Shown here piece by piece: positions 400 through 20,350 of a DNA stretch of 22,615 nt. The notes under the pieces are model-generated. The model was not told the DNA's origin. It did no database searches and saw nothing but the letters and a program-made list of their open reading frames with translations. This DNA comes from a virus. The stretch covers positions 1 through 22,615 of the IMG/VR virus record IMGVR_UViG_3300025155_000041. One strand, 5' to 3'. A program made the translations under genes and the position numbers. Each line of letters starts with the position of its first letter. Positions within the stretch are counted from its first letter, which is position 1.

Positions 400-417
400 T
401 GTTGCAATCCTGCAATA
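400..417. promoter_or_regulatory. 18-bp palindrome family, copy 1 (over ribosome site)
   Basis: On the transcribed strand TATTGC-AGGATT-GCAACA, one base off the family, immediately before the GTG at 399. The AGGA in the loop is the ribosome site, so a hairpin or bound protein could block translation. Confidence 0.55.
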
Positions 418-426
418 GGGGGAGGA

Positions 427-1440
427 TTATGCGAAGTGAACATTTGTTGCCCTGCGTCGTGCCAACACGTAAGCCCAATACCTTGACCAACTGCCTGGAG
501 GCGGACCGACGATAATTCCGCCCAGCGGTGCTGCACCAAGCCGAGACAGCGACGAGGTACGCATGGCAAGGGACCAATACACAAGCGTGGCACGGCTAAG
601 AGTCTCACTATGCGGGCGTTCGCCGAGTACAACCGGAGTTGATCCGCGCAGGCGTGAAGCACTAAGCCCGACCAAACGCACGGCACGACGCCGAACGAAT
701 GCGAGACGAGTCGTAAGCCTTGGAAATCGTTTCTGGAAAAACTCTGCAACTGCTGCACCAATCGGGGCGAGGCCAAGCACGACAAGTCTTGACTTCCCGA
801 TGCGATGGCGAAGCTTGAGCATCCGGGAGGGAGGCTTGATTTGCTTGAACTCAACCACTGCACTGTGAAGCTCTGCACCAAATCCAAAGCCTGTGGGTCG
901 TCCTCGCATGAACGGAACGCGAGGGATGGTGCGAGAGGTAAACCTAATTCTGGTTGTAGGTTCAGGAGCATCTGGAACTTCCAGTACCTCCCACGAGACT
1001 GCCCCACCGCGTCGATTCGCGGGAGACCCACCCGAGGCCGATGTCGTAGCACGAAGTCGCAGATCAGCGTAGTCTGTGATCGTGCCAATCTCGGCTTCAG
1101 ACGGCGTAAAGTCATACTGAGTCCACGTCCCATCAGCAGTCTTGGCAGAATCGGTTGAGATGAGTGTTACACCCTGATACAACCCAACTGTAACAGTGAC
1201 TGCGTTGCCTGCTCCATCCACAACTCCGTCGTCAGTCTTGGCAATGCGATAGCGAAAAGTATGATTAGCGTCGGTTAGCGGGTCGGTAACAGAACTTAGA
1301 AGTACCTCAAGCACAGCCGCCGTGTTGTTTGCACCCCAAGCAAAGTCTCCATCATCGGCGATTGTTTCATCAATTTCTGCGAAACCTCCGGTGAAGCCTG
1401 TTTGCGTGATGTTGCTGATAGGCCGTGCGAACTGTGTCAT
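427..1440 (-). CDS. Putative tail/fibre protein with C-terminal IIVxPP motif
   Basis: 337 residues. The N-terminal half (about 1-155) reads as a beta-sandwich-like segment, with phrases such as TWTQYDFTPSEAEIGTITDY and YADLRLRATTSA. Similar wording occurs in carbohydrate-binding or LamG-like modules of phage and environmental proteins. The C-terminal half is strongly basic and hydrophobic, ending APLGGIIVGPPPG then a YxxxLxRRR stretch. A matching ending occurs in the preceding gene product (1437-2492). The ATG overlaps that gene's stop by 4 nt (ATGA), so the two are probably translationally coupled. A role in host-surface recognition or tail decoration is inferred from position and composition. 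No catalytic residues are recognised. Confidence 0.75.
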   Translation of the reverse strand: MTQFARPISNITQTGFTGGFAEIDETIADDGDFAWGANNTAAVLEVLLSSVTDPLTDANHTFRYRIAKTDDGVVDGAGNAVTVTVGLYQGVTLISTDSAKTADGTWTQYDFTPSEAEIGTITDYADLRLRATTSASGGSPANRRGGAVSWEVLEVPDAPEPTTRIRFTSRTIPRVPFMRGRPTGFGFGAELHSAVVEFKQIKPPSRMLKLRHRIGKSRLVVLGLAPIGAAVAEFFQKRFPRLTTRLAFVRRRAVRLVGLSASRLRGSTPVVLGERPHSETLSRATLVYWSLAMRTSSLSRLGAAPLGGIIVGPPPGSWSRYWAYVLARRRATNVHFA

Positions 1441-2492
1441 CGCCTCACGATCCTGCGACGAAGAATCAAGTCATACACGCCTGACCCACCAGGCACAGGC
1501 GGAACGATTATCGCACCGACTGGGATGTCGCCGAGAAGACTTAGTTGACTCTCTCGACCTTTCGCAATGATCCGGGCGAGTTGGACTCTCGACATGGTAA
1601 TTGCGTGAGGCTTGACTCGACCAGCAGCTGCGGCAGCCTGACCGATGGGAGTTTGGGCAAACGCAACACCTGGTCTCAACCCAAGAATGCGCTTACGCTT
1701 GTGAACATCAAAAGTCAAGTCGTCAAACCGAGGATGGCTGACAACAAGCCTCCCTCCACCACCCGCGGCAGCAATGAAACTCTGCCTACCTCCACGTGCA
1801 CCGAACGCAGAGCGCACGGGCGCATGCTGCGCGACCGTGGCGCCCGTGACGGTGCCGGCATTGAAATTGCCACTCAAATCTGGTTGCAGCCCCACGCCGT
1901 TGTATCCGAGTTCCCAATGCCCGATCAGGCCAGGGAAGCGTGCGAAACCAAACTGGATAGCCAACAACTGACCCAATGTCAACGGAACATTGTAGTGGAT
2001 TGCTCGTGCGATGCGACCAGGGAAGCCAACGTTCAGGTTGGAGTTATTACCGAGAAAGCCGTCGACAGCAGAGTTGTCGCCTGGGGTGCCGCTACCAGCA
2101 TTACGCGCACTGTATGCCGATGGCTCGGCAAATGGAGCACTCAGACTGCCAATGTAAAGTCGCTGATCACCAGCAGCTCCTGCGGTATCCCAGACGAAGG
2201 CAAACCAGAGCCAGGTATTGACGGCGAAGTTGGCAAAGTCGGCCAGCAAAGCGGTGGCGGCCAGTCCGACGGACGGACGGTCGCGGAACACGGAGAGGTT
2301 TGCCGCGCCAGATCCGTAGCTCACGCCGAGCGAGTTGCCAGCACCGAACAGTCCTTTCTGATACAGGCGACCGTCGGTGGTGGTGCTAGTCGGGAACGCC
2401 AAAAAGATCAGCGTCCCGGCGTTTACGTTGTCAAGGGTAGCCCCACTGCCGACGTTTACTCGATGCGATGTTGCGGAGAATAGAAGCGACAT
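1437..2492 (-). CDS. Putative LamG/concanavalin A-like fibre protein
   Basis: 351 residues. Residues about 1-200 look like a concanavalin A/LamG jelly-roll: MSLLFSATSHRVNVGSGA at the start, NTWLWFAFVWDTAG in the middle, then DQRLYIGSLSAPF and GLIGHWELGYNGVG. This phrase order is typical of LamG_3-like domains that bind glycans. The remainder (about 240-351) is basic with Ala-rich helices and ends DIPVGAIIVPPVPGG followed by LILRRRIVRR, resembling the end of the downstream protein. The gene starts 2 nt after the preceding stop and overlaps the next gene by 4 nt. It is probably a receptor-binding or virion-surface protein; that is inferred, and the domain call rests on pattern memory. Confidence 0.75.
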   Translation of the reverse strand: MSLLFSATSHRVNVGSGATLDNVNAGTLIFLAFPTSTTTDGRLYQKGLFGAGNSLGVSYGSGAANLSVFRDRPSVGLAATALLADFANFAVNTWLWFAFVWDTAGAAGDQRLYIGSLSAPFAEPSAYSARNAGSGTPGDNSAVDGFLGNNSNLNVGFPGRIARAIHYNVPLTLGQLLAIQFGFARFPGLIGHWELGYNGVGLQPDLSGNFNAGTVTGATVAQHAPVRSAFGARGGRQSFIAAAGGGGRLVVSHPRFDDLTFDVHKRKRILGLRPGVAFAQTPIGQAAAAAGRVKPHAITMSRVQLARIIAKGRESQLSLLGDIPVGAIIVPPVPGGSGVYDLILRRRIVRR

Positions 2493-2494
2493 CG

Positions 2495-3016
2495 TTAAGC
2501 GTCCGCGTACTCGAAGATGATGTCGCGGATGATGCTGGCGCCAGCCAGCGTGTCTCCCGCGGCCACTCCATCGCGTGCTACGTAGGCCAACACCACGTCG
2601 TCGATTGCCAGCGCTTCGGCGGCAAGCGTGATGCTCGCCTCGGACTTGTGATTAGCAGTCGCCGGAACCGTGATGGTGGCGGTGTCGCTGGTGTTGAAAC
2701 TCGCGGGATCGAGAGTTTCCGCGTTCGCCACGGGTTTGTAATCCACGTCCCAAACCTCATCACCCGCTGTCTTTGTACACTGCCTGACGATGATGATCTT
2801 GGGTGTGCCAACGTAGTTCTTTGGGACAACGAAGGACAGGTAGACTCCAGCTTTTGTGCTAAGCTGCGTGGCGTTCGTGCCATCCTCGTCAATCCGTACG
2901 ACCAGTGACTTGTCAATGTCGTTGGTGCCGAGAATGGTCGCGGGCTCGATCCAGACTTTGCCGGATGGATCAGGCACCAGGCTACCACTCCAAACTGAAA
3001 CTCGATGTGTTGCCAT
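2495..3016 (-). CDS. Structural-type protein, unknown
   Basis: 173 residues starting MATHRVSVWSGSLVPDPSGK. It is rich in Thr, Val, Ile and Asp with alternating hydrophobics (GVYLSFVVPKNYVGTPKIII), suggesting an all-beta fold. It starts directly after the stop of the beta-helix gene and lies 2 nt before the LamG-like gene, in a tight late operon. The size and repeated small-residue beta pattern would fit a head-fibre, decoration or fibre-assembly protein. I do not recognise a family, so the structural role is inferred from neighbours only. Confidence 0.72.
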   Translation of the reverse strand: MATHRVSVWSGSLVPDPSGKVWIEPATILGTNDIDKSLVVRIDEDGTNATQLSTKAGVYLSFVVPKNYVGTPKIIIVRQCTKTAGDEVWDVDYKPVANAETLDPASFNTSDTATITVPATANHKSEASITLAAEALAIDDVVLAYVARDGVAAGDTLAGASIIRDIIFEYADA

Positions 3017-4759
3017 TTAGCCAGTCTCCACGCCTGCAATGTTTGCCTGAAATGTCTCCCAATGCCCACCGCGATTACCGCCACCTAAGGCTGTGCCTAC
3101 AAGTGGAGAATCGACTTGCAGTGAGTAATCATCGTTTGTTGGATCAGTGAACTTAAAGTCAGCCACCGAGCCTAACGTCGCATTCGTGCCTGTATTATCC
3201 GGCGTACCACCCGGCTGGATCGTGATGTCCTCGTTCACCGAGTCGATGCTGGAGTTGTGGCTGACATGCCAGTTATTCGTCCCGTACTTGGTGTTCAACG
3301 AGGTCTGGTACGCGAACCAGCCAAACTGCGAGTTGTACGCGAAGGCGTTGTTGTAAATCCGCCGCGAGAACTCGCTGCCAAAGGGGTCCTGATACGTCCC
3401 GAAAACCGGGCCGTCATTGCCGAACTCGATCGTGGTATGCGGAAGGTCAATCGCGGTGTTGTTGAAGATCGCGATCTCGTAGCTGGCCCGGTGCGAGAAT
3501 CTGCAGAACCCGTCGATGGTTGAGCCGCCGGGATGCCCCCAGGTGTAGTTGTACGACAGCTCTAGGTGGTGCGAGGTATCGTTGACTGGGGTTCCGTTAT
3601 TCCCGAAGCAGGAGAAGATGTCTCCGATGCAGTCGTAGAGCAGATTCCCCCGGACGGTCCAGTGGCGGCAGTGGACGAAGTCCGCGAACGCCGCGTTGTT
3701 CTCCTGACACCCAAAGTTGAGGATCAGGTCGTGGGTACTAGCCGGTGCCCGGCGGAACCCCCGGAACACGCAGTTGGCGAGCACCCCGCGCTCGGCGTTC
3801 TTGATCTCGAAGAGATTCTTCCGGCTCTGTGTCGTACTTCCGTCGCTCTGGAACTCACAGCGATGGACCACGATGTCGCGTGGCCAAGTGTCATCGTTTG
3901 AGCCGTCGAGTGTTGCCGGAGCGGAGCCACCGAAGATGATGTGCTCGGTGGCATAACCAAGGTAGCAATTCTCCAGATGGAGTCGTGAACAGTAGACCCA
4001 CGTCCCAACGCACTGACTGTCCGACAGCCCGGCGTCGTTGAAGCCGCCAAAGCGGCATCCATAGGCTGCCAGGTTCACGCCTGCTGGTGTCCAGCCCCGT
4101 CGCTGCCCTCCCGTTGCCTGCTCCTTGATGATGCAGCGATCAAAGACGAAGTTGTTCGGGGCCGCTGCCTTTGTGCTCCACCCACCCAGTCCGGGCGTAG
4201 ACGAGATGATGGCGTCCGCGTTATTGGACCCGGACTCATTGGTGAAGATGGCTCCAATGAAGCGCCAGTGAGACGACGACGCCTGCATCTGGAGCGCCCG
4301 TCCGTTGACCGAGGTCGAACGGAGCGTGAACATGTTGGCGGTGTGCGCCGTCGTGACCCGCGATCCTAGCGCGGGCAGGCTGGCGTGGGCAGACGAGCGA
4401 ACAATGATCCAGCCAGTGCCGGTCTTTATGTCGAGCTGGAAGTTGCCTGTATGCGTCGTGCCAGCCTCGACCTCGATGATGTCTCCACGCACTACGTCAA
4501 GCAATGCTTGGGCAAACGTCTTCTGGCTAGGAACCTGATGCACAGTCCCGGTGTTATTCGGGATCGTGCGGAAGTCCCACATGTCCCTGGCAGGCTTGTT
4601 GTTAAGCAAGTCCCAGCCAATTGACACACCGAACTCGTCCAAAGGCAAGTCGTAGAGAGGAGCAACTACAACACTGCTGCCTATCTCTGTGCTGCCAGTG
4701 CCGTGGCCCTTACCCAGACCACGGCGCTGGCCCTGACCTCGATGCCTTGACAACTGCAT
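3017..4759 (-). CDS. Right-handed parallel beta-helix protein (putative tailspike/fibre)
   Basis: 580 residues. From about residue 75 it follows the pattern of a right-handed beta-helix: an entry segment (TFAQALLDVVRGDIIEVEAG), then repeated short strands with N, G and T turns such as FDRCIIKEQATGG, LHLENCYLGYATEHIIFGGS, IVVHRCEFQSDG and LSYNYTWGHPGG. Many phage tailspikes and polysaccharide-degrading depolymerases use this fold, as do pectate lyases. I see no diagnostic catalytic set, so enzyme activity is unproven. The N-terminus (about 1-30) is Arg/Gly-rich and may be the virion-attachment end. A GGAG ribosome site precedes the ATG. The gene is the largest in the fibre block, consistent with a host-recognition tailspike. 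Confidence 0.83.
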   Translation of the reverse strand: MQLSRHRGQGQRRGLGKGHGTGSTEIGSSVVVAPLYDLPLDEFGVSIGWDLLNNKPARDMWDFRTIPNNTGTVHQVPSQKTFAQALLDVVRGDIIEVEAGTTHTGNFQLDIKTGTGWIIVRSSAHASLPALGSRVTTAHTANMFTLRSTSVNGRALQMQASSSHWRFIGAIFTNESGSNNADAIISSTPGLGGWSTKAAAPNNFVFDRCIIKEQATGGQRRGWTPAGVNLAAYGCRFGGFNDAGLSDSQCVGTWVYCSRLHLENCYLGYATEHIIFGGSAPATLDGSNDDTWPRDIVVHRCEFQSDGSTTQSRKNLFEIKNAERGVLANCVFRGFRRAPASTHDLILNFGCQENNAAFADFVHCRHWTVRGNLLYDCIGDIFSCFGNNGTPVNDTSHHLELSYNYTWGHPGGSTIDGFCRFSHRASYEIAIFNNTAIDLPHTTIEFGNDGPVFGTYQDPFGSEFSRRIYNNAFAYNSQFGWFAYQTSLNTKYGTNNWHVSHNSSIDSVNEDITIQPGGTPDNTGTNATLGSVADFKFTDPTNDDYSLQVDSPLVGTALGGGNRGGHWETFQANIAGVETG

Positions 4760-4773
4760 TGAGACTTCTCCGA

Positions 4774-5223
4774 TTACTCAGAGAACTCAATCTCAGGCCA
4801 GATACTCTGGTTATCCGGCATGGTGACACGAACAGCGAGGACTTTGGACACGGGGACCACGATTTCCTCGCCGGGGCCGAAGGCCTTCTCGAGTGTTACA
4901 CCCTGCGGAGAGAGCGAGAAGATCGACCTCACCACCGGACCTGTTGTAGGTTCAGCGGTGTAGTTCACCTTTGCTGTACAGATTGCCGCTGACTCAGCCC
5001 CATCGAGTGCCGACGGAGTAACGGCGGTTCCTGTTCCGTCGGTGTCGAACTGAACAAGCTCCACTGTGCCAGGAGCATGAGTTGCAGTCACTGACAGGCC
5101 ACCGATGGTCACGCGCTTGATTCGCGCACGACGCGTTGCTGGCGTGATCACTGTGGCAACCGTCTTTGCTGTAGTACCTACGACAGCAACTGCCGCCGCG
5201 GGCTTCACCGTATAATCAGGCAT
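4774..5223 (-). CDS. Small structural-type protein, unknown
   Basis: 149 residues beginning MPDYTVKPAAAVAVVGTTAK and ending SIWPEIEFSE. It has alternating beta-type hydrophobics (RRARIKRVTIGGLSVTATHAP, EEIVVPVSKVLAVRVTMPDN) with no membrane segment or signal peptide. It lies between a 118-residue structural-type gene and the tailspike gene. Such proteins after the capsid gene are often decoration or neck components. No family is recognised, and the role is inferred from position. Confidence 0.72.
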   Translation of the reverse strand: MPDYTVKPAAAVAVVGTTAKTVATVITPATRRARIKRVTIGGLSVTATHAPGTVELVQFDTDGTGTAVTPSALDGAESAAICTAKVNYTAEPTTGPVVRSIFSLSPQGVTLEKAFGPGEEIVVPVSKVLAVRVTMPDNQSIWPEIEFSE

Positions 5224-5234
5224 TGCAGGACTCC

Positions 5235-5591
5235 TTAGATATCGACTTGGCCGATGAGTGGGAAGACTCGATCCGCGCCTACAGGTGTTGTGGCACGGAG
5301 CCTAAAAGCCTTCATTGCGGCAGCAGGAACAACAGCAGCTCGATCTGCAGGAGCGGTAACATCTGTTCCAGCAATCGAGAGAGTTCGCCAGTCTGAGGCC
5401 GTAGGCGACTCGATCCAGGAAGCCTGACACTCCACAGTCTCAGGTAAGGTTGTAGGCGCATACACGATGAGATCAACCAATGTGCCAAGTGCAACCTTCG
5501 AGTTAACGCCTGCGGCAAGACTTATTGCGTTGCTTGCATTCTGACCGTTGGCAATGGTCAGAATTGGCAACTTGATTGCATGTCTACGCAT
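5235..5591 (-). CDS. Small structural-type protein, unknown
   Basis: 118 residues starting MRRHAIKLPILTIANGQN. The middle contains VECQASWIESPTASDWRTLS and the C-terminus reads AMKAFRLRATTPVGADRVF, a beta-sandwich-like pattern. Its ATG overlaps the end of the preceding gene by 8 nt, implying coupled translation. It is probably a virion-associated or neck protein of the late operon. No family is recognised. Confidence 0.72.
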   Translation of the reverse strand: MRRHAIKLPILTIANGQNASNAISLAAGVNSKVALGTLVDLIVYAPTTLPETVECQASWIESPTASDWRTLSIAGTDVTAPADRAAVVPAAAMKAFRLRATTPVGADRVFPLIGQVDI

Positions 5592-5856
5592 CGTGGATGA
5601 GTTCCACCGTAGTAGGTGAGCCCTGGCCTGACTTGGTCACAGAACACCAAGCAAAGCCACGAGGCAAGTCGTGCTCGCCCTCGGAAACAATTCGGAGTCG
5701 AGCCTGAGTTGAGCCATTGAGACCCAACTCAAGATCAAGAAACTCCTCGTTGCCGAGCTGAGTCACGCGAATCGAGCGCTCGTTCCCCTGCAACACCACA
5801 CGGGTTGAGCGCGGGAAGATACACGCTACCAACATTAGGCGAGCGTAGGTTGCCAT
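5584..5856 (-). CDS. Small late-operon protein, unknown
   Basis: 90 residues starting MATYARLMLVACIFPRSTRV. It is beta-like with charged strands (RVTQLGNEEFLDLELGLNGS, LRIVSEGEHDLPRGFAWCSV). The start lies 3 nt downstream of the preceding gene's stop and its end overlaps the next gene by 8 nt. A short hydrophobic run near the N-terminus (LMLVACIF) is too short and uncharged for a confident signal peptide. It is probably a minor virion or assembly protein. Function is not recognised. Confidence 0.66.
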   Translation of the reverse strand: MATYARLMLVACIFPRSTRVVLQGNERSIRVTQLGNEEFLDLELGLNGSTQARLRIVSEGEHDLPRGFAWCSVTKSGQGSPTTVELIHDA

Positions 5857-5859
5857 GAG

Positions 5860-6513
5860 TCAGTTCCTCGCCGGCTGGTCAGTGATGACCCAGGCGTCGA
5901 AGTCCTTGGCGCCATCTGGAGCTGCGTTGGGAGTGTAGGTGCCATAGGCATCGGCAGCAGCAGCAGTAGACCCAGCCACGACAACGCCGTTGGTGACCAC
6001 ACTTCCGGCATCAAGTTCTACGATAGCCTTGGGAGCCGAAACCTTCACCGGGAATCCGAAGACCTTGCCAGTTCCAACGATGTTGGAGTTGGCAGAGGCA
6101 TCAGTCACCGCGGTGATTGTAACACTGGTCACAATGGCAAAGGATTTTGTGCCGGTGAACACTTTTGACGTACCACCCACGGTGACTGACCAAGCCTCGG
6201 TAATGGGTACACGTCGGGCAGCATCGGCAAAGCCAGAGATCACTCCGGACTCAGCAACCACAGCAGAGCCATGAGTAACGGTGATGACTACGTTGCGCGG
6301 CTTGTCTGGTCGACCTTCGGCCGCAGTAACCAACGCACCATTCAGCGTTGGGGTAATCGTTGTGGCATTGGGCCCGGCAATGGTAGTGACGTACCCATTG
6401 TCGTCTACCGCCACTGCGTCGATGAGCGAGAAGTGATACAAACCTGCAAGGAGGTGTTGTGCCCCCCTGCGAGTTCGTATTCCCTCACCCAGGTAGGAAG
6501 CAGAAAGAGGCAT
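5860..6513 (-). CDS. Post-capsid structural protein, unknown
   Basis: 217 residues starting MPLSASYLGEGIRTRRGAQH. It contains long Thr/Val/Ala strands (NVVITVTHGSAVVAESGVIS, FAIVTSVTITAVTDASANS) and ends TYTPNAAPDGAKDFDAWVIT. Genes of this size and wording commonly follow the major capsid gene in phages and may encode head-decoration or major virion proteins. A GGAGGG ribosome site at the stop of the capsid gene sits 10 nt before the ATG. The structural assignment comes from position and composition; a more precise role is not supported. Confidence 0.75.
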   Translation of the reverse strand: MPLSASYLGEGIRTRRGAQHLLAGLYHFSLIDAVAVDDNGYVTTIAGPNATTITPTLNGALVTAAEGRPDKPRNVVITVTHGSAVVAESGVISGFADAARRVPITEAWSVTVGGTSKVFTGTKSFAIVTSVTITAVTDASANSNIVGTGKVFGFPVKVSAPKAIVELDAGSVVTNGVVVAGSTAAAADAYGTYTPNAAPDGAKDFDAWVITDQPARN

Positions 6514-6519
6514 GAGTGA

Positions 6520-7419
6520 TTACCCTCCGCTGCTACCGTAGACTCCCCGCCACTCGTCCCAGTCACAACCACGTCGAGCGATAATCATCGCCTCGATGTC
6601 CTTCGTGCGGGGATCGTCGTAGGTCCACAACGTCGCGGGGTAGCGGTTGAAGTACTTGATCTCGTGCTCGCCCGCGAGCAAGAACCACGCATCGGTGTCG
6701 TCGAGATAGTGGGAGAGGTGAGGCATCAACGACTGATGGGCAAGCGAGTTGTAGTCGTTGAAGTTAGTCCCAGGCAGCCGTGGAGTCTTGAGAAGCTGGT
6801 CCACGATCCACATGTCACCGATGTTGTGGACAAGGGCTCGAGGAATGAGACGCATCTTGATAACGCCATCCTCAAGCGTGAGGCTGTGGAAGTGTTCAAG
6901 TGCAGCCTGCAACGAAAGCAGGTCGATGTCCGCGTCCACGGTGGGGCGATTCCTGATCGTGCCGCCCTTGATCAGCGTGTGATCGCCGCACAGGGACTGG
7001 CCTGCGGTGAAACCTGCGAAGGCTGTGTTGAACGCGTTGTTGAACGGAGAGTGCATGATGACCTCTTCGTTGTGCCGCGCGCTGCGAGACAGGTATTTCA
7101 TCAAGCGGTTTCCAACCAGGGAGTAGAGGTCATCCTCTTGCATCTCCCACGTGATGCGAAAACCGAGCGCATACGTGTCATACAGGAACCGCTTGGTACC
7201 ACCCTGACGGGGATCCTCAAAACTTACCTGACCCCCTTCAGGCTTGCGTCGCAGAGACTGGAAACCAGCCATCTGCCAGGTCTCCTCGTAGGCACGACGC
7301 GAGGTCTCGACATTGACCAAGGCCTTGCCTTCCAGTGGGAGTTGCTTCCACTGGTCGAAGATAACCTTCTTGAACCCAGGTATGAGCGCCTTGTGAAGAG
7401 CGCCACGTGGCAGTGCCAT
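6520..7419 (-). CDS. Major capsid protein
   Basis: 299 residues. The wording matches the capsid family related to Mu gpT-type head proteins: an N-terminal helix region, VETSRRAYEETWQMAGFQSL, then TYALGFRITWEMQEDDLYSL and YLSRSARHNEEVIMHSPFNN. Next come an FNTAFAG block and the conserved GDHTLIKGG turn, followed by the P-domain-like DLLSLQAALEHFHSLTLEDG. It lies downstream of portal and scaffold, the standard location for the capsid gene. The length is typical of an HK97-fold shell subunit. GGAGGG lies 8 nt before the ATG. The HK97 fold is inferred from the family resemblance. Confidence 0.9.
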   Translation of the reverse strand: MALPRGALHKALIPGFKKVIFDQWKQLPLEGKALVNVETSRRAYEETWQMAGFQSLRRKPEGGQVSFEDPRQGGTKRFLYDTYALGFRITWEMQEDDLYSLVGNRLMKYLSRSARHNEEVIMHSPFNNAFNTAFAGFTAGQSLCGDHTLIKGGTIRNRPTVDADIDLLSLQAALEHFHSLTLEDGVIKMRLIPRALVHNIGDMWIVDQLLKTPRLPGTNFNDYNSLAHQSLMPHLSHYLDDTDAWFLLAGEHEIKYFNRYPATLWTYDDPRTKDIEAMIIARRGCDWDEWRGVYGSSGG

Positions 7420-7438
7420 TGTTTAGCCCTCCAAAGGG

Positions 7439-7903: not shown

Positions 7904-8476
7904 TTATCCTCCTACATTCAGGTTGGGGTTGGAGCCGTCGACAACAAGACGAGAAGGCGATGTGACTCGGTGGCCACGTGACTTCACGAGCCCTGAGACT
8001 TTTTCGACCTCCTGGTAGAACTCGGACGCTCCTGCCTGCCGACCTTCGGAGTCAGTGTCCAGTGCTGCAGCCGTTTGTGCTTTGCGCTCGGCGTCGCGCT
8101 CGTCGAACATTTCGACGGGGCATGACCAAAGCTGGAGATTTCCACGCTGGATTGCGTCTCCAGATTTGGGGTCTTTGAACTGTTCGTACCCATTCAGGGT
8201 AGAATTCATTGCCTTGTCAGTGTTGCCAACGTTCACCCACCGGAAATGGCGAGAGGGGTTGGCATCCTTGAATTCCTTCGCACTGTCAAGCATGATTTGC
8301 TTGGGCGTGCGAGGCACAGCGCCAGAACGACCTGTGGTGCGTTCGATTCGTTGCAGGTTTTCGAGCTGAGCCTTCGCGTCGGGCGCGGAGGCAACAGCGT
8401 CAGCCATGCGCTCGGCGGCTTCATGCTTTTCGCGCTCGGCCTTGTCCATCAGGTTGAGAGAAGGTGCGTTTGCCAT
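7904..8476 (-). CDS. Charged head-assembly region protein, unknown
   Basis: 190 residues. The N-terminus is a charged helix (MDKAEREKHEAAERMADAVA), followed by an RTPKQIMLDSAKEF segment and the motif RHFRWVNVGNTDKAMNSTLN. The C-terminal part has another helix (SEFYQEVEKVSGLV) and ends NPNLNVGG. Its ATG overlaps the scaffold stop (ATGA). The combination of charged helices and location between scaffold and capsid suggests an assembly or internal head protein. That is inference; no family is named. Confidence 0.72.
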   Translation of the reverse strand: MANAPSLNLMDKAEREKHEAAERMADAVASAPDAKAQLENLQRIERTTGRSGAVPRTPKQIMLDSAKEFKDANPSRHFRWVNVGNTDKAMNSTLNGYEQFKDPKSGDAIQRGNLQLWSCPVEMFDERDAERKAQTAAALDTDSEGRQAGASEFYQEVEKVSGLVKSRGHRVTSPSRLVVDGSNPNLNVGG

Positions 8477-9303
8477 CAGAGTTGTGCTCCCTGCTTGGAG
8501 AAGTGAATGTACTCAGCGTCAGTCATACCGAACTCCTCGGCGACCTTGCGCTGGAGTGCATCAAGTGTGTGCGGACTCCCTGCACCGTTTGGCGACCCTG
8601 GCAAACGTACTGGGAGGGCAGAACCAGCAAGGGCACGCTCTGCCTCACGTGCGTCATCGAGAGTAGGTGTGATCTTGCCTCGACGTTGAAGCTCGTTGAC
8701 ATACTTCTGTGGGTCCGAACCGCGAACTTGGAAGATCAGCTCATCCCAAGCCTGTGGGTTGGTGAAGGCCTCGGCAGGCACGCGGGAGCGATAGGATTCG
8801 ATTTCCTTGGAGAAGAGCTCGAACTCGAGCGCGTACTTGGAACGGGCGTTAGCCTCGGCACTCGACACAGTGCCCATTGCCAGCGGGGCGAGACGACGCT
8901 CAAGAGCAGCCCCCAAGGCGTTGTTGTTCTGAGCTTGCATGATCCTCATGGCAGCAATACGCTGCTTGGGGTCATCGCTCGCAACCATTTCCTCGAGTTG
9001 CTCCTCGGTGGGGCCGATCTGTTGCGATCCTGCAACAGGGGCGGGTTGCCCCATGTGGACGACTTGAGGCGCGGCAGGCGTCGCTGCCATGCGACGCATA
9101 ACCTCAGCATTGATCGTAGCAGTGTTTTGAAGCTTGGTGACTTCTGCGAAGACATCGTTGAGCGACTTGCCCTTGAATGCCTCAGGGATGGTGTCACCCT
9201 CAAGCTTCTCGGGAAGGGCAGTACTTACCTGTTCTGTCATTCCCTCGATAGGAGTGAGTACAGATTCGTTTGGATCAACTTGGATTTCTTCAGGCGTCGG
9301 CAT
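8476..9303 (-). CDS. Putative capsid scaffolding protein
   Basis: 275 residues from the ATG at 9303, chosen over an upstream in-frame ATG because GGAGA lies 8 nt before it. The protein is acidic and helical: MPTPEEIQVDPNESV, then LPEKLEGDTIPEAFKGKSLN with a long coiled-coil-like stretch to about residue 200. It ends VAEEFGMTDAEYIHFSKQG. The phrase EAFKGKSLNDVFAEVTKLQN resembles the scaffold of podovirus-like phages. It lies between portal and capsid, the expected location. Scaffolds direct procapsid assembly and are removed on maturation. An 18-bp palindrome lies inside this gene at 9020-9037. Confidence 0.78.
   Translation of the reverse strand: MPTPEEIQVDPNESVLTPIEGMTEQVSTALPEKLEGDTIPEAFKGKSLNDVFAEVTKLQNTATINAEVMRRMAATPAAPQVVHMGQPAPVAGSQQIGPTEEQLEEMVASDDPKQRIAAMRIMQAQNNNALGAALERRLAPLAMGTVSSAEANARSKYALEFELFSKEIESYRSRVPAEAFTNPQAWDELIFQVRGSDPQKYVNELQRRGKITPTLDDAREAERALAGSALPVRLPGSPNGAGSPHTLDALQRKVAEEFGMTDAEYIHFSKQGAQL
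9020..9037. repeat. 18-bp palindrome family, copy 2 (in scaffold gene)
   Basis: TGTTGC-GATCCT-GCAACA, perfect arms, inside the scaffold coding region. On the transcribed strand the loop is AGGATC. Confidence 0.55.
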
Positions 9304-9634
9304 TGTGGGACTCTCCACTGAGTTGAGTCTGATAGACTTCAATCAGACGATTGAGGGATTCGATTGCACTACGCTTGATTGCTGCGGCCTCACGTGTATG
9401 ACGAAACGCTACCACCGGCTCCGTTGCCGCCTGGGCCAGGCGCTGGGACTGGGCCAGGTCGTCCTCCATTTGGTGCAGGAGAAGCCCCCAAAGCGGGCTG
9501 CTCCGCAGCTCCTGGAGTTCGGCCAAACGAAGTTGGGTTACCTGCTCCTGAAGCTCCGATGGAAGCGAGGAAGGCTGTGAGGTCAGGGAGGTATTCTTCA
9601 GGCGACGGGACATCGTACTTGGTTGCGAGATCAT
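9290..9634 (-). CDS. Small helical protein overprinted on the portal 3' end
   Basis: 114 residues. The first 245 bases lie within the portal gene in another frame and the last 14 overlap the scaffold start. I accept it because AAGGA lies at good spacing before the ATG at 9634, because it bridges an otherwise empty 86-nt gap between portal and scaffold, and because its sequence is a well-formed helix (ELQEQVTQLRLAELQELRSS, IKRSAIESLNRLIEVYQTQL). The portal frame here is low-complexity Gly/Pro/Ala. It may be a small head-assembly or connector accessory protein. The family is unknown. Confidence 0.7.
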   Translation of the reverse strand: MISQPSTMSRRLKNTSLTSQPSSLPSELQEQVTQLRLAELQELRSSPLWGLLLHQMEDDLAQSQRLAQAATEPVVAFRHTREAAAIKRSAIESLNRLIEVYQTQLSGESHNADA

Positions 9635-11734: not shown

Positions 11735-13344
11735 GTCACGATTCTCCCGGAGGGTGACCAGCCTGGAGGCAGCGTCGCAATCAAGGATTGCTCGAAGTTA
11801 TCCACAGGCGGAACGCCTTGCATCGGCCTGCCGATCAAGTCTGAGATGATCTTGGACTCGGCTGCGCGTAGCTTTGCCCATCGCCGTGGGTCCATCGTGC
11901 CACGCCAAAGTTGGAGTTGCATCGAGAGACAGTCAATCAAGTCGTCGTGCTTACCGAGCGGGAACTCGTCGGCCTCCTGGAGCAACTCGAAGTGCTTCCG
12001 GTGTACCCACAGGCGACCCGTTGCCGCCACGGGTTGGAGGCCTTCGATGCGAATTTCTTTCTTATTGATTGCCTTGATTGGAACGATGTTGAAGTACAAG
12101 TCTTCCTGCTGCGCCGCGGCACGGAGGAACCACTTGAAGGCCTTCTGGTAAGCCACGTCCTCAATCCCAAAGGCCCGCGGAGTGAATTGGCGCTTGATCT
12201 CGAACAGCTTCTCAATCAGCTGTAGGGGTGTGCAACGCTCAGCCCAAGCATCAAGCACGATGGCCTCGCCCCACGGGGTGACACCGACGGTAACTACTGC
12301 ATTGCGGTCGTCGGTGGCTTTCTCAGCAGCGGCCAAGTCGACTGTGGTAGTGATGTCAAGCTTCGCGAGGTCTACGACTCGGTGAACGTTGCCCTCGCGA
12401 TCATAAAGCACTACTGCCTGCTCGTCGTAGGTGTAGGTCCAGAACTTGATATCCCCTGTGTTGAATGTCTGGATGGACTCATCGCGCGGGGAGTTCATGA
12501 ACCAGCAGGACCAGCGATATGGAGTGTAGGTCGATCTCAGGAACGCGATGTCCTCCAGGGTGCCCATCTTCTCCGGGAATATGATCTCCCCGGACTCAAT
12601 GATGGAGCGGATGAGCTTCGCGGACTTGCCAGCGAACTTGACCATCAAGTGAGAGTATGCATCGTGGATGGCCCACCTGGTCCCGACAATCCACACTGAG
12701 TCCTGCGTGTGGTTGTCCATGAGGGCAGTGATACCACTCATGCGAGTAATCACGTCTGCCATGACATCAGGGGAGCGGTAGGCATCCTCCTCGATCGGAT
12801 CATCCCAAGTCTGATGGGTGAAGTGCGACGAAGTCGCGGTGCCCTCGACGCCATAGGCGGAGATTGTGGGGTCCTGATAGGCACCTTGTCGAACAAAGTC
12901 GAGTCCTTCCTGATTCCAACGCTTGCCTGACACGCGTGTGTCGACCGGGATGATCTCAGAATAGAGTGCCCTAAACACACGGTTTGAGTCCGCAATGTTG
13001 CGGATAGCCAAGAGCATGTTGGTGGCTTTCTTGGCTACCGCGTTGAAGATTGCGCACCTGTGTTCGACATTCTGCACGACACGTTGGAGCGTGCCGGAGA
13101 TGGTAACGTGAGAAGTCTTGAGATGGTCGCGAGGCATGAGGATGAACTTAAACCTCGCGGGGTTGTGATCGAGGAACACACTGACTGGGCCATGGCAGGT
13201 GCGGGTTACGTCTTTCATTCCGCACATCTGTGAGAACCCAAAGTGATCCCACCTGAGCTTCTCCGCAATGTCATCGCGAAGATCCTTTGGCAGGGTCACG
13301 ATGCCCTCATCGAGATTTGGCAGGTCCACGTCGATGTGAGTCAC
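11731..13344 (-). CDS. terL: Terminase large subunit (ATPase-nuclease)
   Basis: 537 residues, starting at a GTG that overlaps the preceding stop (GTGA). It packages phage DNA into the prohead. The ATPase half shows a Walker A-like PRDHLKTS (71-78), a Walker B-like HQTWDDPIEED (177-187) and the coupling motif GTRW (221-224). The nuclease half has the RNase H-like metal residues: D336 in TTVDLAAAEKATDD, E395 in FGIED and D467/D468 in KHDDLID. The length is normal for a full terminase. It lies downstream of the small subunit and upstream of portal. Assignment is firm; the packaging type (cos or pac) cannot be read from this. Confidence 0.94.
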   Translation of the reverse strand: MTHIDVDLPNLDEGIVTLPKDLRDDIAEKLRWDHFGFSQMCGMKDVTRTCHGPVSVFLDHNPARFKFILMPRDHLKTSHVTISGTLQRVVQNVEHRCAIFNAVAKKATNMLLAIRNIADSNRVFRALYSEIIPVDTRVSGKRWNQEGLDFVRQGAYQDPTISAYGVEGTATSSHFTHQTWDDPIEEDAYRSPDVMADVITRMSGITALMDNHTQDSVWIVGTRWAIHDAYSHLMVKFAGKSAKLIRSIIESGEIIFPEKMGTLEDIAFLRSTYTPYRWSCWFMNSPRDESIQTFNTGDIKFWTYTYDEQAVVLYDREGNVHRVVDLAKLDITTTVDLAAAEKATDDRNAVVTVGVTPWGEAIVLDAWAERCTPLQLIEKLFEIKRQFTPRAFGIEDVAYQKAFKWFLRAAAQQEDLYFNIVPIKAINKKEIRIEGLQPVAATGRLWVHRKHFELLQEADEFPLGKHDDLIDCLSMQLQLWRGTMDPRRWAKLRAAESKIISDLIGRPMQGVPPVDNFEQSLIATLPPGWSPSGRIVT

Positions 13345-13565
13345 AGCCGATCCTCGTCGAGCTTTTCCTCAATTCGATTCAAGCTACCGAGTACTCGATT
13401 GAGTTCCCACGCAAAGTATGCTTGACTCGGGGTGAATCCGTGATCTTTGAATATCGGCCAGACGTTTTCCTTGAACTCTGCAAAGTACTGCCGCCAGGTC
13501 TCCTCGTCGTGCTCGTCGATGGAGACGAGTTCAGGCCGATCAGGGATGATGCGTTCAGTGGGCAT
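13341..13565 (-). CDS. Small acidic protein before large terminase, unknown
   Basis: 74 residues starting MPTERIIPDRPELVSIDEHD, with EETWRQYFAEFKENVWPIFK and a C-terminal helix SLNRIEEKLDEDRL. It is preceded by a perfect 18-bp palindrome at 13575-13592 and then CAGGAGA, which places the ribosome site directly after the palindrome. The end overlaps the terL GTG start. The Trp-rich middle and terminal helix suggest a small soluble helical protein, perhaps a terminase accessory by location. No family is recognised. Confidence 0.74.
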   Translation of the reverse strand: MPTERIIPDRPELVSIDEHDEETWRQYFAEFKENVWPIFKDHGFTPSQAYFAWELNRVLGSLNRIEEKLDEDRL

Positions 13566-13574
13566 TTTGTCTCC

Positions 13575-13592
13575 TGTTGCAAGGTTGCAACA
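13575..13592. promoter_or_regulatory. 18-bp palindrome family, copy 3 (before 74-residue gene)
   Basis: TGTTGCAAGGTTGCAACA has perfect 8-bp arms around GG. It lies in the 28-nt gap between the M15 peptidase and the next gene, directly before CAGGAGA. Confidence 0.6.
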
Positions 13593-13593
13593 G

Positions 13594-14001
13594 TTAAGGT
13601 TCTATCACCTCAAAATGTCCCAAGTCACGAAACTTCTCATCGCGTGTGTCAAGATCTCCATCCCAATCGCCGCCCCACCGAAGCTTGATTCCAAGCCTCG
13701 TGGCTGTGGCGAGGACGAATCCTGCGAGCAGAATGAATCTCTGCCGAGCTACCTCTGTATTACTCCAGTCGATGGGCCACGGCGCGAGGTCCACACCACG
13801 TGATGGGTTCGAGTTGTGTTTGCCGTTGGGCCACCTGACCTTCGAGAACCCACGGGCATACGCCCTGTCTTGAGCTTCCTGCCCCCGGTGGCCCTCAAGC
13901 ACACTGAAATCAATTAGCAGGATGACTTCGCGCAGCACGACTTGCAACTCCTCCACACACGTGGTGAGTTGATTCTCACTTCGCACGCCAAATTGTGGCA
14001 T
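13594..14001 (-). CDS. M15-family peptidase, endolysin-like (L-Ala-D-Glu endopeptidase type)
   Basis: 135 residues, a complete single-domain enzyme of the M15C size class (T5 endolysin/VanY-like fold). The zinc site is visible as H62 and D71 in GKHNSNPSRGVDLAPWP and H129 in DLGHFE; D126, three residues before H129, is the likely catalytic position. Family members cleave the peptide stem of peptidoglycan and serve as phage endolysins. There is no signal peptide, so release would need a holin or similar; a TM protein is two genes away. Unusually, it lies between the small and large terminase genes. It overlaps the small terminase stop by 1 nt. Confidence 0.88.
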   Translation of the reverse strand: MPQFGVRSENQLTTCVEELQVVLREVILLIDFSVLEGHRGQEAQDRAYARGFSKVRWPNGKHNSNPSRGVDLAPWPIDWSNTEVARQRFILLAGFVLATATRLGIKLRWGGDWDGDLDTRDEKFRDLGHFEVIEP

Positions 14002-15822: not shown

Positions 15823-15881
15823 GGCAATACCAAGTCGATTACAGGTTGGGTTGCTCAATCCTCGTTGTCAATGGGTTGCAC

Positions 15882-15899
15882 TGTTGCGGGATTGCAACA
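15882..15899. promoter_or_regulatory. 18-bp palindrome family, copy 4 (upstream of P1)
   Basis: TGTTGC-GGGATT-GCAACA, 29 bp upstream of the P1 -35 box. A member of the recurring TGTTGC-N6-GCAACA set (400, 9020, 13575, 15882, 20333). The location suits a transcriptional operator. Confidence 0.6.
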
Positions 15900-15928
15900 G
15901 CGAGGCGAGGACGAGCTGCATGGCTAAT

Positions 15929-15957
15929 TTGACAAGGTAGCGACCTCATGGTATATT
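15929..15957 (+). promoter_or_regulatory. Promoter P1 (sigma70-type)
   Basis: TTGACA (15929-15934), a spacer of exactly 17 nt and TATATT (15952-15957), then GTGG. The -35 box is perfect and the -10 has one mismatch. The same layout and flanks recur at P2 and P3. The start site would fall near 15964, about 22 nt before the first gene of the operon. Confidence 0.88.
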
Positions 15958-15985
15958 GTGGGAACAATGACACAGGAGAATCCCA

Positions 15986-16165
15986 ATGGCGGAGAAGAAA
16001 CTTCCCACGGTCGACGAGTTGATCGACAGAAACAAGGAGCTTGAGGAGCAGCTGGAATCGGTGGGGCGCAGAGCTCACATGCTGGCCGGCAAACTCGCGA
16101 AGATTCGCGAAGCGTTGGAGGGTGTGCCAGGGTTGCCCGCGACGGCGTACAAGCTTCTGCGGTAA
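15986..16165 (+). CDS. 59-residue coiled-coil protein, first gene after P1
   Basis: ATG at 15986 with ACAGGAGAA upstream and stop at 16163-16165. The protein starts MAEKKLPTVDELIDRNKELE and continues as a heptad-like helix (LEEQLESVGRRAHMLAGKLA), ending in a short Pro/Gly turn and AYKLLR. It is a small coiled-coil protein, perhaps a regulator or dimer partner; I do not recognise a family. It is the first gene transcribed from P1. The stop codon is followed after one base by the first bases of the hammerhead ribozyme, so cleavage would leave this coding sequence on the 5' product. Confidence 0.82.
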   Translation: MAEKKLPTVDELIDRNKELEEQLESVGRRAHMLAGKLAKIREALEGVPGLPATAYKLLR

Positions 16166-16166
16166 G

Positions 16167-16242
16167 CTTCCCAGGTCGAAACCCAACGACGGGAGTCGTA
16201 GGGTAGCAGCGTAGATGCGTTGCCTGATGAGACCACAGGAGG
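16167..16242 (+). ncRNA. Type II hammerhead ribozyme
   Basis: All parts of the hammerhead fold are present. The core CTGATGA is at 16224-16230 and GAA plus the paired A at 16178-16181. Stem III is ACCCAACGAC (16181-16190) with GTCGTAGGGT (16195-16204), one A/A mismatch, capped by the GNRA tetraloop GGGA. The UH site is T16204-A16205, with predicted cleavage between 16205 and 16206. Stem I is GCAGCG (16206-16211) with CGTTGC (16218-16223), including one G-U pair, and loop TAGATG. Stem II is GGTC (16174-16177) with GACC (16231-16234), then an internal loop and CTTCC (16167-16171) with GGAGG (16238-16242). Stem II is the open helix, defining type II. It fills the gap between two genes exactly. 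Activity is predicted, not shown. Confidence 0.92.
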
Positions 16243-16247
16243 ATGCG

Positions 16248-16454
16248 ATGTACCGCATGACAAAGAGCGAACGACGTAAGGCGCGCAAGGCCGCACGGGC
16301 AGAGAGCCAACCATTGACTGGCGAGTTAGCGATTGAACGCAACTCACAACCAGAAGAGTTCTCAGAAACTCGTCGTGGTTACGTTGCGCGGGATCGGTGG
16401 GCGCGACGGTATGATGAACTCAACGGTGCGCCGGAAAGCGAATACGATCGTTGA
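16248..16454 (+). CDS. Small basic protein downstream of ribozyme
   Basis: 68 residues from the ATG at 16248, chosen because AGGAGG lies 5 nt upstream; earlier in-frame starts lie inside the ribozyme. The start MYRMTKSERRKARKAARAES is strongly basic, and the second half is more acidic (RRYDELNGAPESEYDR). The basic helix could bind nucleic acid, but no family is recognised. Its ribosome site is within stem II of the hammerhead ribozyme, so its translation may depend on ribozyme folding or cleavage. A strong hairpin follows at 16467. Confidence 0.8.
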   Translation: MYRMTKSERRKARKAARAESQPLTGELAIERNSQPEEFSETRRGYVARDRWARRYDELNGAPESEYDR

Positions 16455-16466
16455 GACAGCACCTCA

Positions 16467-16501
16467 CAAACCCACGAGGGACACGATCCTTCGTGGGTTT
16501 G
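16467..16501 (+). terminator. Strong hairpin, terminator-like
   Basis: Arms CAAACCCACGAGGGA (16467-16481) and TCCTTCGTGGGTTTG (16487-16501) pair over 15 positions with one G-U, loop CACGA. The GGGTTT end of the stem is typical, but no T-run follows. It closes the P1 unit and lies just before P2. Confidence 0.75.
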
Positions 16502-16528
16502 GCACGTCGGGGAGTTGCCCAAGGTTAT

Positions 16529-16557
16529 TTGACAACTCCCAAACCTGATGGTATGAT
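16529..16557 (+). promoter_or_regulatory. Promoter P2 (sigma70-type)
   Basis: TTGACA (16529-16534), 17-nt spacer, TATGAT (16552-16557), then TGTGG. The bases ATGGTAT at the spacer end match P1. Predicted start near 16564, only a few bases before an ATG at 16568. Confidence 0.88.
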
Positions 16558-16597
16558 TGTGGATGCAATGCCATGCCCACATGCGACCAACTTTCCC

Positions 16598-16801
16598 ATG
16601 ACTGTCGCACAACTTCGACGCCATCTTGCGAAACTACCCGACTCAACGAATGTGTCGGTGTTGCTCGCACAATCTCCAACATGTGGATTATCTCGCGAAC
16701 CTATCACTGACATATTTGTCGGTGAAACTGAACGCGGGACAAAGTTTGTCAAACTTGTTGTGGTTGTGCCGAAATCTGTGTTAGCACGGGACCTTTGGTA
16801 A
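16598..16801 (+). CDS. Small phage-type protein, MTVAQL family-like
   Basis: 67 residues from ATG 16598 (MTVAQLRRHLAKLPDSTNVS). Many small phage proteins begin in this way: a helix ending in a Pro and a charged turn, then a beta sheet. Here FVGETERGTKFVKLVVVVPK follows. An in-frame ATG at 16568 would add ten residues and be nearly leaderless relative to P2. Neither has a ribosome site, so the start is uncertain. The stop overlaps the next ATG (TAATG). Function unknown. Confidence 0.75.
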   Translation: MTVAQLRRHLAKLPDSTNVSVLLAQSPTCGLSREPITDIFVGETERGTKFVKLVVVVPKSVLARDLW

Positions 16802-17430
16802 TGACCTCCCAAACCTGTCCCAAATGTAAAGCAATCCCCCGAAAGGGGCGGCTTACGCACTTGCTCACGTGTCCGTTGAGGCCGGAGCCAAAGACCGACG
16901 AACGTGGACGCGTGCTTCGCAACGTTCGTGGGCCATCACGCCTTGCGTCCATGCGTTGGTGTCCGAGTTGCCAAGACATGCGGCCCACCTTGTGGGACGA
17001 ATGCGAAACGTGTGGTGCGCAACTCACGAAGCACGTCGCGAAGACTCAATCACACGTCCAATTCAAGGCTCCGTCCGGGACAATGACTAAGGTGGAGCTA
17101 CTCGCATTGTTCAATACCTCAGGGATGTTCCGACCGAGGTACGACTACATCAGCGTGGGACCACAGGTTGGCGACGTGGGTGAGCGAGACATCGTGCCTC
17201 ACACCACAGAATGTCCGGGATGCAAACGTCGCCAGATCGCCGGCATGTACAAGGTGGAATACACCGACGGGCATGTGGAGATCGAACTGGCTTGCACGCA
17301 ATGCGCGTCGTGGACGATACCACGCAGGCTTGGGTTCGGTGTGCCAGTCGTGGCAACTGTGGGATGCCTCGCCACCGTGGTATGTGTTGCCTCGGATGCG
17401 TGGAAAGTCGAATCGACAATGGAGGGATGA
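16801..17430 (+). CDS. Multi-zinc-ribbon protein
   Basis: 209 residues. Three cysteine-rich sites are visible: CPKC (6-9) with H20/C24; CPSC (54-57) with CETC (68-71); and CPGC (138-141) with CTQC (165-168). The last two are zinc-ribbon pairs. The spacing suggests a zinc-binding protein that contacts nucleic acid or protein. A hydrophobic segment near the C-terminus (about 176-197) may be a buried helix or membrane segment. The ATG overlaps the previous stop by 1 nt and the end overlaps the next ATG. No family name can be given. It may be a transcription or mRNA-handling factor, which is inference. Confidence 0.82.
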   Translation: MTSQTCPKCKAIPRKGRLTHLLTCPLRPEPKTDERGRVLRNVRGPSRLASMRWCPSCQDMRPTLWDECETCGAQLTKHVAKTQSHVQFKAPSGTMTKVELLALFNTSGMFRPRYDYISVGPQVGDVGERDIVPHTTECPGCKRRQIAGMYKVEYTDGHVEIELACTQCASWTIPRRLGFGVPVVATVGCLATVVCVASDAWKVESTMEG

Positions 17431-17849: not shown

Positions 17850-17860
17850 AGGAGATCTCA

Positions 17861-18340: not shown

Positions 18341-18381
18341 GCCCACGCCACACATGCAGCAGGCAGTGCAGTCATGCCTAA
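18148..18381 (+). CDS. Small zinc-binding protein
   Basis: 77 residues with ACAGGAGAG before the ATG. CRNC (17-20) near the start and HTCSRQC (68-74) at the end form a split four-cysteine site, as in CRxC...CSxxC zinc fingers. The middle (SGDNRLLAPLAMLLKDGELA) is mixed. Its start lies inside the extended upstream reading frame and its end overlaps the next start (ATGCCTAA). It is one of several zinc-ribbon genes in this operon. Exact function unknown. Confidence 0.78.
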   Translation: MLIHTGTDCAHTGFGLCRNCREPMRVKYSGDNRLLAPLAMLLKDGELAPRNGQEFKITYTLLALSPRHTCSRQCSHA

Positions 18382-18913
18382 CTCGAGCTTGCCCCAAAGG
18401 ATCACACAGTCGTTGGCAGTACAATGTGGTCATGTCTTTGCGTCATGTGTCTGCATTCGCGCTGCAGGTCACACTGGTCCACACGTATGTGACTGTGGTG
18501 GAGCCGTAGGCGATGGTGTAGAGCCTGTAGTCTATGCGATGCCTAAGTTTCCAAGATTACTAACATCTGAGACCGTCGAGGCATACGCGGCTCAGTGGAA
18601 GGAGTCCTGCGTGCGATGCAATCGTGAGATCGTGCCTTTCGGCGCAGCATCCGGGGCAAACGACGATGGAGTGTGTCTCGTGTGTTTGGCTGAGGCAGAT
18701 GGATACATAAGTGTCATTGCCTGGATGGAAGCACAAGAAGAAATGCAGTCAACCAACGATGCAATCGAAGCTATCATCATCGGGCTGGATTATCTGACCT
18801 TTGAGGGCACAGATGATGACTTGAAACAGGCACTTAAGCTTCGATCAAAGCAGAGCGGAGTGTCTGTCGAGGTCCAAGTCAAAGCAATAGTTGATAGGTT
18901 GACCTTGCGATGA
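18374..18913 (+). CDS. Cysteine-rich phage protein, two zinc sites
   Basis: 179 residues. The first site is CVCIRAAGHTGPHVCDC (25-41), a C-x-C...HxGxHxCxC pattern known from phage and actinobacterial proteins that bind zinc. The second is CVRC (79-82) with CLVC (101-104), a zinc ribbon. The C-terminal third is helical and acidic (FEGTDDDLKQALKLRSKQSG). The ATG overlaps the previous gene by 8 nt. A nucleic-acid-linked role is possible; function unknown. Confidence 0.78.
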   Translation: MPNSSLPQRITQSLAVQCGHVFASCVCIRAAGHTGPHVCDCGGAVGDGVEPVVYAMPKFPRLLTSETVEAYAAQWKESCVRCNREIVPFGAASGANDDGVCLVCLAEADGYISVIAWMEAQEEMQSTNDAIEAIIIGLDYLTFEGTDDDLKQALKLRSKQSGVSVEVQVKAIVDRLTLR

Positions 18914-19041: not shown

Positions 19042-19063
19042 CTCACAAACAGGAGACCTTACA

Positions 19064-19300: not shown

Positions 19301-19301
19301 G

Positions 19302-19595: not shown

Positions 19596-19596
19596 G

Positions 19597-19728: not shown

Positions 19729-19731
19729 CTC

Positions 19732-19917
19732 ATGCGACTCACATTCGAGTTCTCGAAAGAAACCAAGGGCGCGGTGCAATACCACGAGATCGAAGGCTCC
19801 GATCCGTTGGGCGAGCCCATCGTGGGCACGCTGTACGTGCGCAAGTCAGGGCTGCGCAAGTTGGGGGCGAGTACGATCCCGAAGCAGGTCACGATAGACC
19901 TGGAGGTGGGCTCATGA
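19732..19917 (+). CDS. Small phage beta-protein family
   Basis: 61 residues. MRLTFEFSKETKGAVQYHEI, then DPLGEPIVGTLYVRKSGLRK, ending KQVTIDLEVGS. The VGTLYVRKSxL...G...I.V.I phrase recurs in many small phage proteins in early regions, of unknown function. An ACAGGAGA site precedes the ATG and the end overlaps the next ATG by 4 nt. Confidence 0.8.
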   Translation: MRLTFEFSKETKGAVQYHEIEGSDPLGEPIVGTLYVRKSGLRKLGASTIPKQVTIDLEVGS

Positions 19918-20327
19918 CTCGCATCGTAATCAACGCTTGCTACGGTGGCTTTGGAGTTAGCATCGAGGCAATGAAAGCGCTTGTTGAGCGTGGGAGTGAC
20001 GTGATCGCGACGGTCACGATGGAGGAGTACACAAGAGGTAATATCCTCCCAAGTTTCTTGGCCGAACTTGTTGATGCTGGTGACGGGTATCAGACTCAGA
20101 AGTGGGCAAGGTCGCTGTTCAAGGATGGCTTAGTGTATTATATTGAGCGCGAACGCGAGGGTCGCACTGATCCAATCCTTGTCAATGTCGTGGAGGAGTT
20201 GGGCGAGATGGCGAACGGTCCACATGCAGAACTCAAAATCGTCGACGTGCCGGATGATGTGGAATGGGAGATTGCAGAGTATGATGGAATCGAGTGGGTG
20301 GCCGAGAAGCATCGCACGTGGGAATGA
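19914..20327 (+). CDS. Widespread phage protein with C-terminal EYDGIEWVAEKHRTW signature
   Basis: 137 residues from the ATGA-coupled ATG at 19914. It opens MTRIVINACYGGFGVSIEAM, contains GRTDPILVNVVEELGEMANG, and ends DVEWEIAEYDGIEWVAEKHR. I recognise this as a family seen in many phages and prophages of unrelated hosts, always of unknown function. The strong conservation of the ending suggests an interaction or active-site surface. An 18-bp palindrome follows it. Confidence 0.86.
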   Translation: MTRIVINACYGGFGVSIEAMKALVERGSDVIATVTMEEYTRGNILPSFLAELVDAGDGYQTQKWARSLFKDGLVYYIEREREGRTDPILVNVVEELGEMANGPHAELKIVDVPDDVEWEIAEYDGIEWVAEKHRTWE

Positions 20328-20332
20328 CCCAC

Positions 20333-20350
20333 TGTTGCAGAATTGCAACA
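20333..20350. promoter_or_regulatory. 18-bp palindrome family, copy 5
   Basis: TGTTGC-AGAATT-GCAACA in the 40-nt gap between two genes, 17 nt before the next ATG. Same family as 400, 9020, 13575 and 15882. Confidence 0.6.

Follow-up and report, generated by a model that had tools for sequence, protein, structure and literature searches.

Comparison of the window with contigs of related phages revealed dispersed palindromes which share one frame throughout the clade, are uniform within each genome, change between specificity groups and keep their positions. We infer that they are bound by a dimeric protein of phage origin and have a roadblock or silencing action. The palindromes are very probably DNA operators of a dimeric protein, and this protein is likely to be encoded by the phages. 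Roadblock or repression is preferred narrowly to activation. The complete reading, namely dispersed stoperator-like DNA operators of a phage-encoded dimeric helix-turn-helix (HTH) protein whose specificity was switched repeatedly and which acts by roadblock or silencing, is on balance the one that we hold to be correct.

Palindrome copies in the window

The window is the whole stretch of DNA analyzed here, 22,615 bp of the linear virus record IMGVR_UViG_3300025155_000041. It is partial and ends within the early region. Five copies of TGTTGC-N6-GCAACA were found in it, four of them perfect (9020-9037, 13575-13592, 15882-15899 and 20333-20350) and one with a single mismatch (400-417). All of these coordinates had been given correctly by a sequence-only reading of the window, which had also placed three sites close before starts, one upstream of promoter P1 and one in the scaffold gene. 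These contexts were borne out as well.

Its expectation that such sites are rare by chance agrees with the counts in randomized sequence, where about 0 copies are expected against the five in the window. Dinucleotide shuffles of the window gave 1.4 matches with up to two mismatches versus six seen, and an order-3 Markov null gave no exact match in 300 sequences versus four seen. In 60 Markov nulls no family of palindromes with identical 6+6 arms had more than two members. Symmetry in fact extends over about 20-22 bp, (A)CTGTTGC-RRNNYY-GCAACAG(T); at 20 bp it is perfect in three copies and has one mismatch in two. The window contains exactly five sites. They score 28.6-31.2 bits, and the sixth-best 22-bp score, 7.5 bits, is 21 bits lower. 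The sites and their neighbors are the following:

1..399, minus strand: reading frame with GTG start at 399 immediately following operator copy 1; truncated by the contig end
398..419, no strand: operator copy 1, ACTGTTGCAATCCTGCAATAGG, abuts the GTG start on the minus strand
8476..9342, minus strand: scaffold-position gene containing operator copy 2
9018..9039, no strand: operator copy 2, TCTGTTGCGATCCTGCAACAGG, within the scaffold gene
13341..13565, minus strand: gene of 74 aa immediately behind operator copy 3; TerL comes next
13573..13594, no strand: operator copy 3, CCTGTTGCAAGGTTGCAACAGT, 7 nt before the ATG of the 74-aa gene ahead of TerL
15880..15901, no strand: operator copy 4, ACTGTTGCGGGATTGCAACAGC, upstream of promoter P1
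15929..15957, plus strand: sigma70-type promoter P1 (TTGACA-17-TATATT), with the 22-bp operator copy 4 lying 27 bp upstream
20331..20352, no strand: operator copy 5, ACTGTTGCAGAATTGCAACACT, before the ATG at 20368
20368..20751, plus strand: 127-aa gene behind operator copy 5

Measured from the 18-bp palindromes, the site at 13575 lies 7-9 nt before the ATG at 13565 (minus strand), the site at 20333 lies 17 nt before the ATG at 20368 (plus strand) and the site at 15882 lies 29 bp upstream of the -35 element of P1. Three related promoter-like repeats, TTTGACAA...TATATT, TATGAT and TACATT, were observed on the plus strand of the early region at 15928-15967, 16528-16567 and 21584-21623.

Palindrome families of related phages

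No near match to the window was present among about 50,700 phage records (megablast). No relative emerged from a capsid-based search of IMG/VR or, with TerL as query, from about 85,000 genomes of bacteria and archaea. With a TerL profile, about two dozen loci of uncultured relatives with 41-68% TerL identity were recovered from IMG/VR. The relative G003 (48,391 bp) carries a 99-bp terminal repeat and is therefore apparently complete.

The TGTTGC-N6-GCAACA sequence of the window was absent from the relatives checked first, and almost no relative carries it. An exact motif scan of IMG/VR for this sequence gave 51 contigs, nearly all with a single copy, and none was recognized as a relative. Three IMG/VR contigs that are not recognized relatives (L036, L049 and L055) have two CTGTTGC-N6-GCAACAG copies about 1.9 kb apart, with the same spacing in all three. 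In G003 a palindrome peculiar to this contig, TATCA-N6-TGATA, occurs in nine distinct copies. The homologue of the 127-aa gene in G003 (26254-26664) also lies behind an operator, which is of different sequence.

A systematic scan detected a separate palindrome family in nearly every relative longer than 13 kb, and a palindromic 22-bp model recovered the remainder (G006, G018 and a two-site family in G005). Besides the window, G003, G005, G006, G007, G009, G010, G013, G016, G017, G018, G020, G021 and G025 have their own family. Each of the 13 further contigs modeled has a dispersed palindrome of its own that fits the 22-bp frame of the window (AGNNNTNCANN, mirrored), for example TATCA-N6-TGATA, AGGTATTCA-N4-TGAATACCT, TTTTCC-N6-GGAAAA and AGGTGTACA-N4-TGTACACCT. 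Together the 14 contigs contain 94 sites, 2-12 per contig, and for nearly all of them the families lie far above Markov nulls. In the 10-kb contig L006 two junction copies, TRATAC-GGATTT-GTATAA, were seen by eye; automated scans did not place them above the null. When the motif finder was applied to distant TerL relatives, most remained at the null, two rose above it via low-complexity repeats and one via a tandem repeat. The 22-bp palindrome signal is not produced by the motif finder on arbitrary phage DNA.

The 14 consensus halves fit the common half-site frame A-(G/C)-N-(T/G)-N-T-N-(C/A)-A. A at position 1, T at position 6 and A at position 9 are invariant, position 2 is G or C and position 8 is C or A. 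Changes are concentrated at positions 3, 4, 5 and 7. Among the relatives the arms change symmetrically, and geometry and genomic positions stay. In a cross-scan of nine genomes each operator model was strong only in its own genome, except for the group of G018, G021 and G025. A TATTC-type core is common to G007, G009, G010, G013 and G017. The sequence-only reading had named missing conservation in relatives as a ground for giving up its proposal. This ground would have misled, because relatives keep the system but mostly not the sequence itself.

Some cultured distant relatives carry other repeats. Alcaligenes phage vB_Af_QDWS535 (OK172329.1) has seven TCCTAATATTAGGA-type palindromes at 34877-47646, confined to the early region, and, being in culture, would permit tests of a comparable set of operators. 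Roseobacter phage CRP-902 (OQ401624.1) repeats ATCTRTGACAGATGTCATATAT at 1913, 2228, 12536, 13168, 13754 and 14303, outside the structural gene block. Two more distant contigs, G022 and G023 (29% TerL identity), carry five to six TTTTCA-N5-TGAAAA palindromes with odd spacing, possibly a parallel system with a different binder.

Positions of the sites and their possible function

Only 11 of the 94 sites lie inside conserved genes, where 52.9 are expected. The start of TerS has a site in 11 of 12 contigs (0.5 expected), and so has the start of p92, a small gene behind the capsid cluster (11 of 12; 0.2 expected); the search for sites was free of position information, and the distance windows for TerS and p92 were set after seeing the data. 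The sole exception at both places is the window, which has a site at neither. Of the 67 directional sites, 44 lie in the interval from -4 to +30 nt relative to an ORF start, versus 22 for random positions; individual distances are approximate, since genes of the relatives were called mechanically, from conserved ORFs together with the longest ones. Sites also recur at the portal start, between the divergent late and early genes, at convergent operon ends (G017, G020 and G025) and at the junction that precedes the ParB-methyltransferase region. In G003 the region 15823-17064 encodes a ParB_N domain fused to an N6/N4 DNA methyltransferase. Homologues occur in most long relatives, and in several an operator lies at the start of this gene or in the gene preceding it. 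One operator of G003 lies inside the gene for a 2672-aa polyvalent protein with LPD38 and HATPase_c domains (3998-12016).

We propose that a dimeric, probably phage-encoded HTH protein binds the palindromes as DNA operators, dispersed genome-wide at the boundaries of genes or modules and, in a few cases, within genes. The bound protein would block or attenuate RNA polymerase passing the boundary, as at stoperators. Expression of whole modules might in this way be shaped or silenced, namely at late operon entry (TerS), capsid-cluster exit, the replication module and operon ends. Within the clade the specificity of the protein would have changed repeatedly, all sites of a genome changing along. 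Half-sites show no polarity (25 versus 24), and a directional stoperator model was rejected on this ground. To judge by their placement, unoriented sites at module entries and exits, at operon ends and upstream of promoters would fit a polymerase block better than classical repression of initiation.

Alternatively, the bound protein might activate strong sigma70-type promoters from upstream, sites in mid-operon being secondary. Near the sites, 19 promoter-like sequences occur versus 6.3 expected, and sites near strong sigma70 promoters lie upstream of them without overlap. The activator role is kept open by six sites in five phages, including 15882 of the window, which lie 25-31 bp upstream of -35. 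However, only a minority of sites has a promoter-like sequence within the tested range, and no promoter stands behind most of them, among these almost all of the sites at p92 and at the ends of operons. The promoters are already near consensus, and distances of 11, 46, 67 and 98 bp also occur without helical phasing, which weakens a model of activation at fixed spacing. We consider activation unlikely as the main function.

Concerning the binder, an iterative family search recovered only one HTH family in all seven complete or near-complete genomes, a diverged one of 150-190 aa. It is present in all 12 contigs which reach the early region. The window, which ends within that region, is without the gene. 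This family is a tentative candidate for the binder of the operators. It was rejected as the proven binder: profile matches are weak only (UPF0122 and GcrA), the AlphaFold2 model gave no confident fold match in the PDB, and divergence of the protein does not track that of the operators (Mantel r 0.08, p 0.33). No operator lies at the gene's own start. A GNAT gene of the structural side correlates with operator distance (p ~0.005, n 8-9); with 11 other families tested, this was rejected as a multiple-testing result. At 18374-18913 the window encodes a 179-aa protein with a weak C-terminal match to FitA-like ribbon-helix-helix proteins (E 1e-4), which may be another DNA-binding protein. A host-encoded regulator or nucleoid protein could bind instead, site sequences differing because hosts differ. 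The difference of the sites from phage to phage and the candidate status of the phage binder are compatible with this, but a host regulon hardly explains a fixed frame and placement at module boundaries beside phage-specific genes such as TerS and p92. We regard a host regulator as quite improbable.

A function of the DNA outside transcription, such as partition, packaging, nucleoid compaction or recombination joints, with boundary placement reflecting coding constraint only, is still less probable. The ParB_N-methyltransferase fusion of G003 with its homologues and the sites inside some genes speak for it. Against it, the TerS and p92 junctions keep sites while the sequences change, ParA was not found in the 12 related contigs, and recombination joints between phages need shared sequence, which is mostly absent.

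The sequence-only reading had left open a phage-wide operator or an RNA hairpin bound by a GGA-loop protein like CsrA. The operator half is well supported by symmetric change of the arms, constant geometry and positions, and sites at convergent ends. The RNA half found no support: GGA occurs in only three of the five loops of the window and is absent from most relatives, other phages having centers such as AAATTT, CATTTG and ATTAAT. One-sided mismatches on the transcribed strand comprise 21 G-U versus 31 A-C. Selection for a stem predicts an excess of G-U, which was not found; an RNA stem is therefore disfavored. Taken together, the mismatch pattern, the missing polarity and the sites at convergent ends and upstream of promoters favor a predicted symmetric DNA site for a dimer. 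Action of a translational regulator such as CsrA on RNA hairpins at ribosome-binding sites, or cleavage of these by an RNase, is highly improbable even though many sites end 0-15 nt before start codons and some, such as site 400 of the window, have GGA at Shine-Dalgarno distance.

A role of the DNA operators in lysogeny is without support: a profile search with working controls found no integrase, serine recombinase, HTH_3 repressor or ParA in the 12 related contigs, and no relative was found in the roughly 85,000 genomes. More speculatively, in this apparently non-integrating clade a phage dimer may mark module boundaries as roadblocks or insulators which time lytic transcription or exclude superinfecting relatives, protein and sites switching specificity together. 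If this is true, repeated joint switching gives many heterospecific groups in a handful of genomes.

Comparison with known dispersed sites

To our knowledge, most known examples of dispersed operator networks come from mycobacteriophages and phiC31. The nearest structural match is the 17-bp dyad TGTTCGG-N3-CCGAACA of Cluster O mycobacteriophages (Corndog), which occurs in more than 30 copies with one sequence cluster-wide and is not linked to starts (PMC4351075). These phages are without integrase or parAB, their dyads are dispersed, partly intergenic and without assigned function, and the authors predicted a dimeric protein that binds DNA and has a role other than at promoters (PMC4351075). 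Dispersed dyad-symmetric sites are likewise present here, and integrase and ParA were not found. In contrast, the sites here are 20-22 bp long, occur in 2-12 copies, are linked to starts or module boundaries and have their arms replaced between phages. None of the consensus half-sites matches the Cluster O sequence.

The stoperators of Cluster A mycobacteriophage L5 have a length of about 13 bp, are asymmetric and follow the direction of transcription; their phages are temperate, and the repressor is known (PMC6550527). They are genome-wide repressor sites, mostly not at promoters, and their consensus diverges between heteroimmune relatives (PMC6550527). Many dispersed sites, mostly away from promoters, and a consensus diverging between relatives are also found here, but the sites are symmetric and unoriented, and no repressor or integrase was found. 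The Start Associated Sequences of Cluster K are asymmetric 13-bp elements, linked to the starts of translation in the non-structural half (PMC3203893). They resemble our sites as repeated elements within a few nucleotides of start codons; ours, however, are palindromic and also occur at promoters, at operon ends and in structural genes. The conserved inverted repeats of phiC31, a temperate phage with integrase, are bound by its c repressor. They too are palindromic sites dispersed in a phage genome, whereas no integrase was found here and the phages are unrelated.

The sites thus have features in common with stoperators, Cluster O dyads and Start Associated Sequences, and differ from each in a defining feature. 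Therefore, we file them as a variant of dispersed phage operator networks. The clade shows such networks elsewhere, persisting without an evident lysogenic cycle. Its networks keep their positions at gene junctions, and the recognition sequence of many sites is exchanged from one relative to another. Two questions become testable in this way, the role of such sites outside lysogeny and the joint change in specificity of a regulator and its many dispersed targets.
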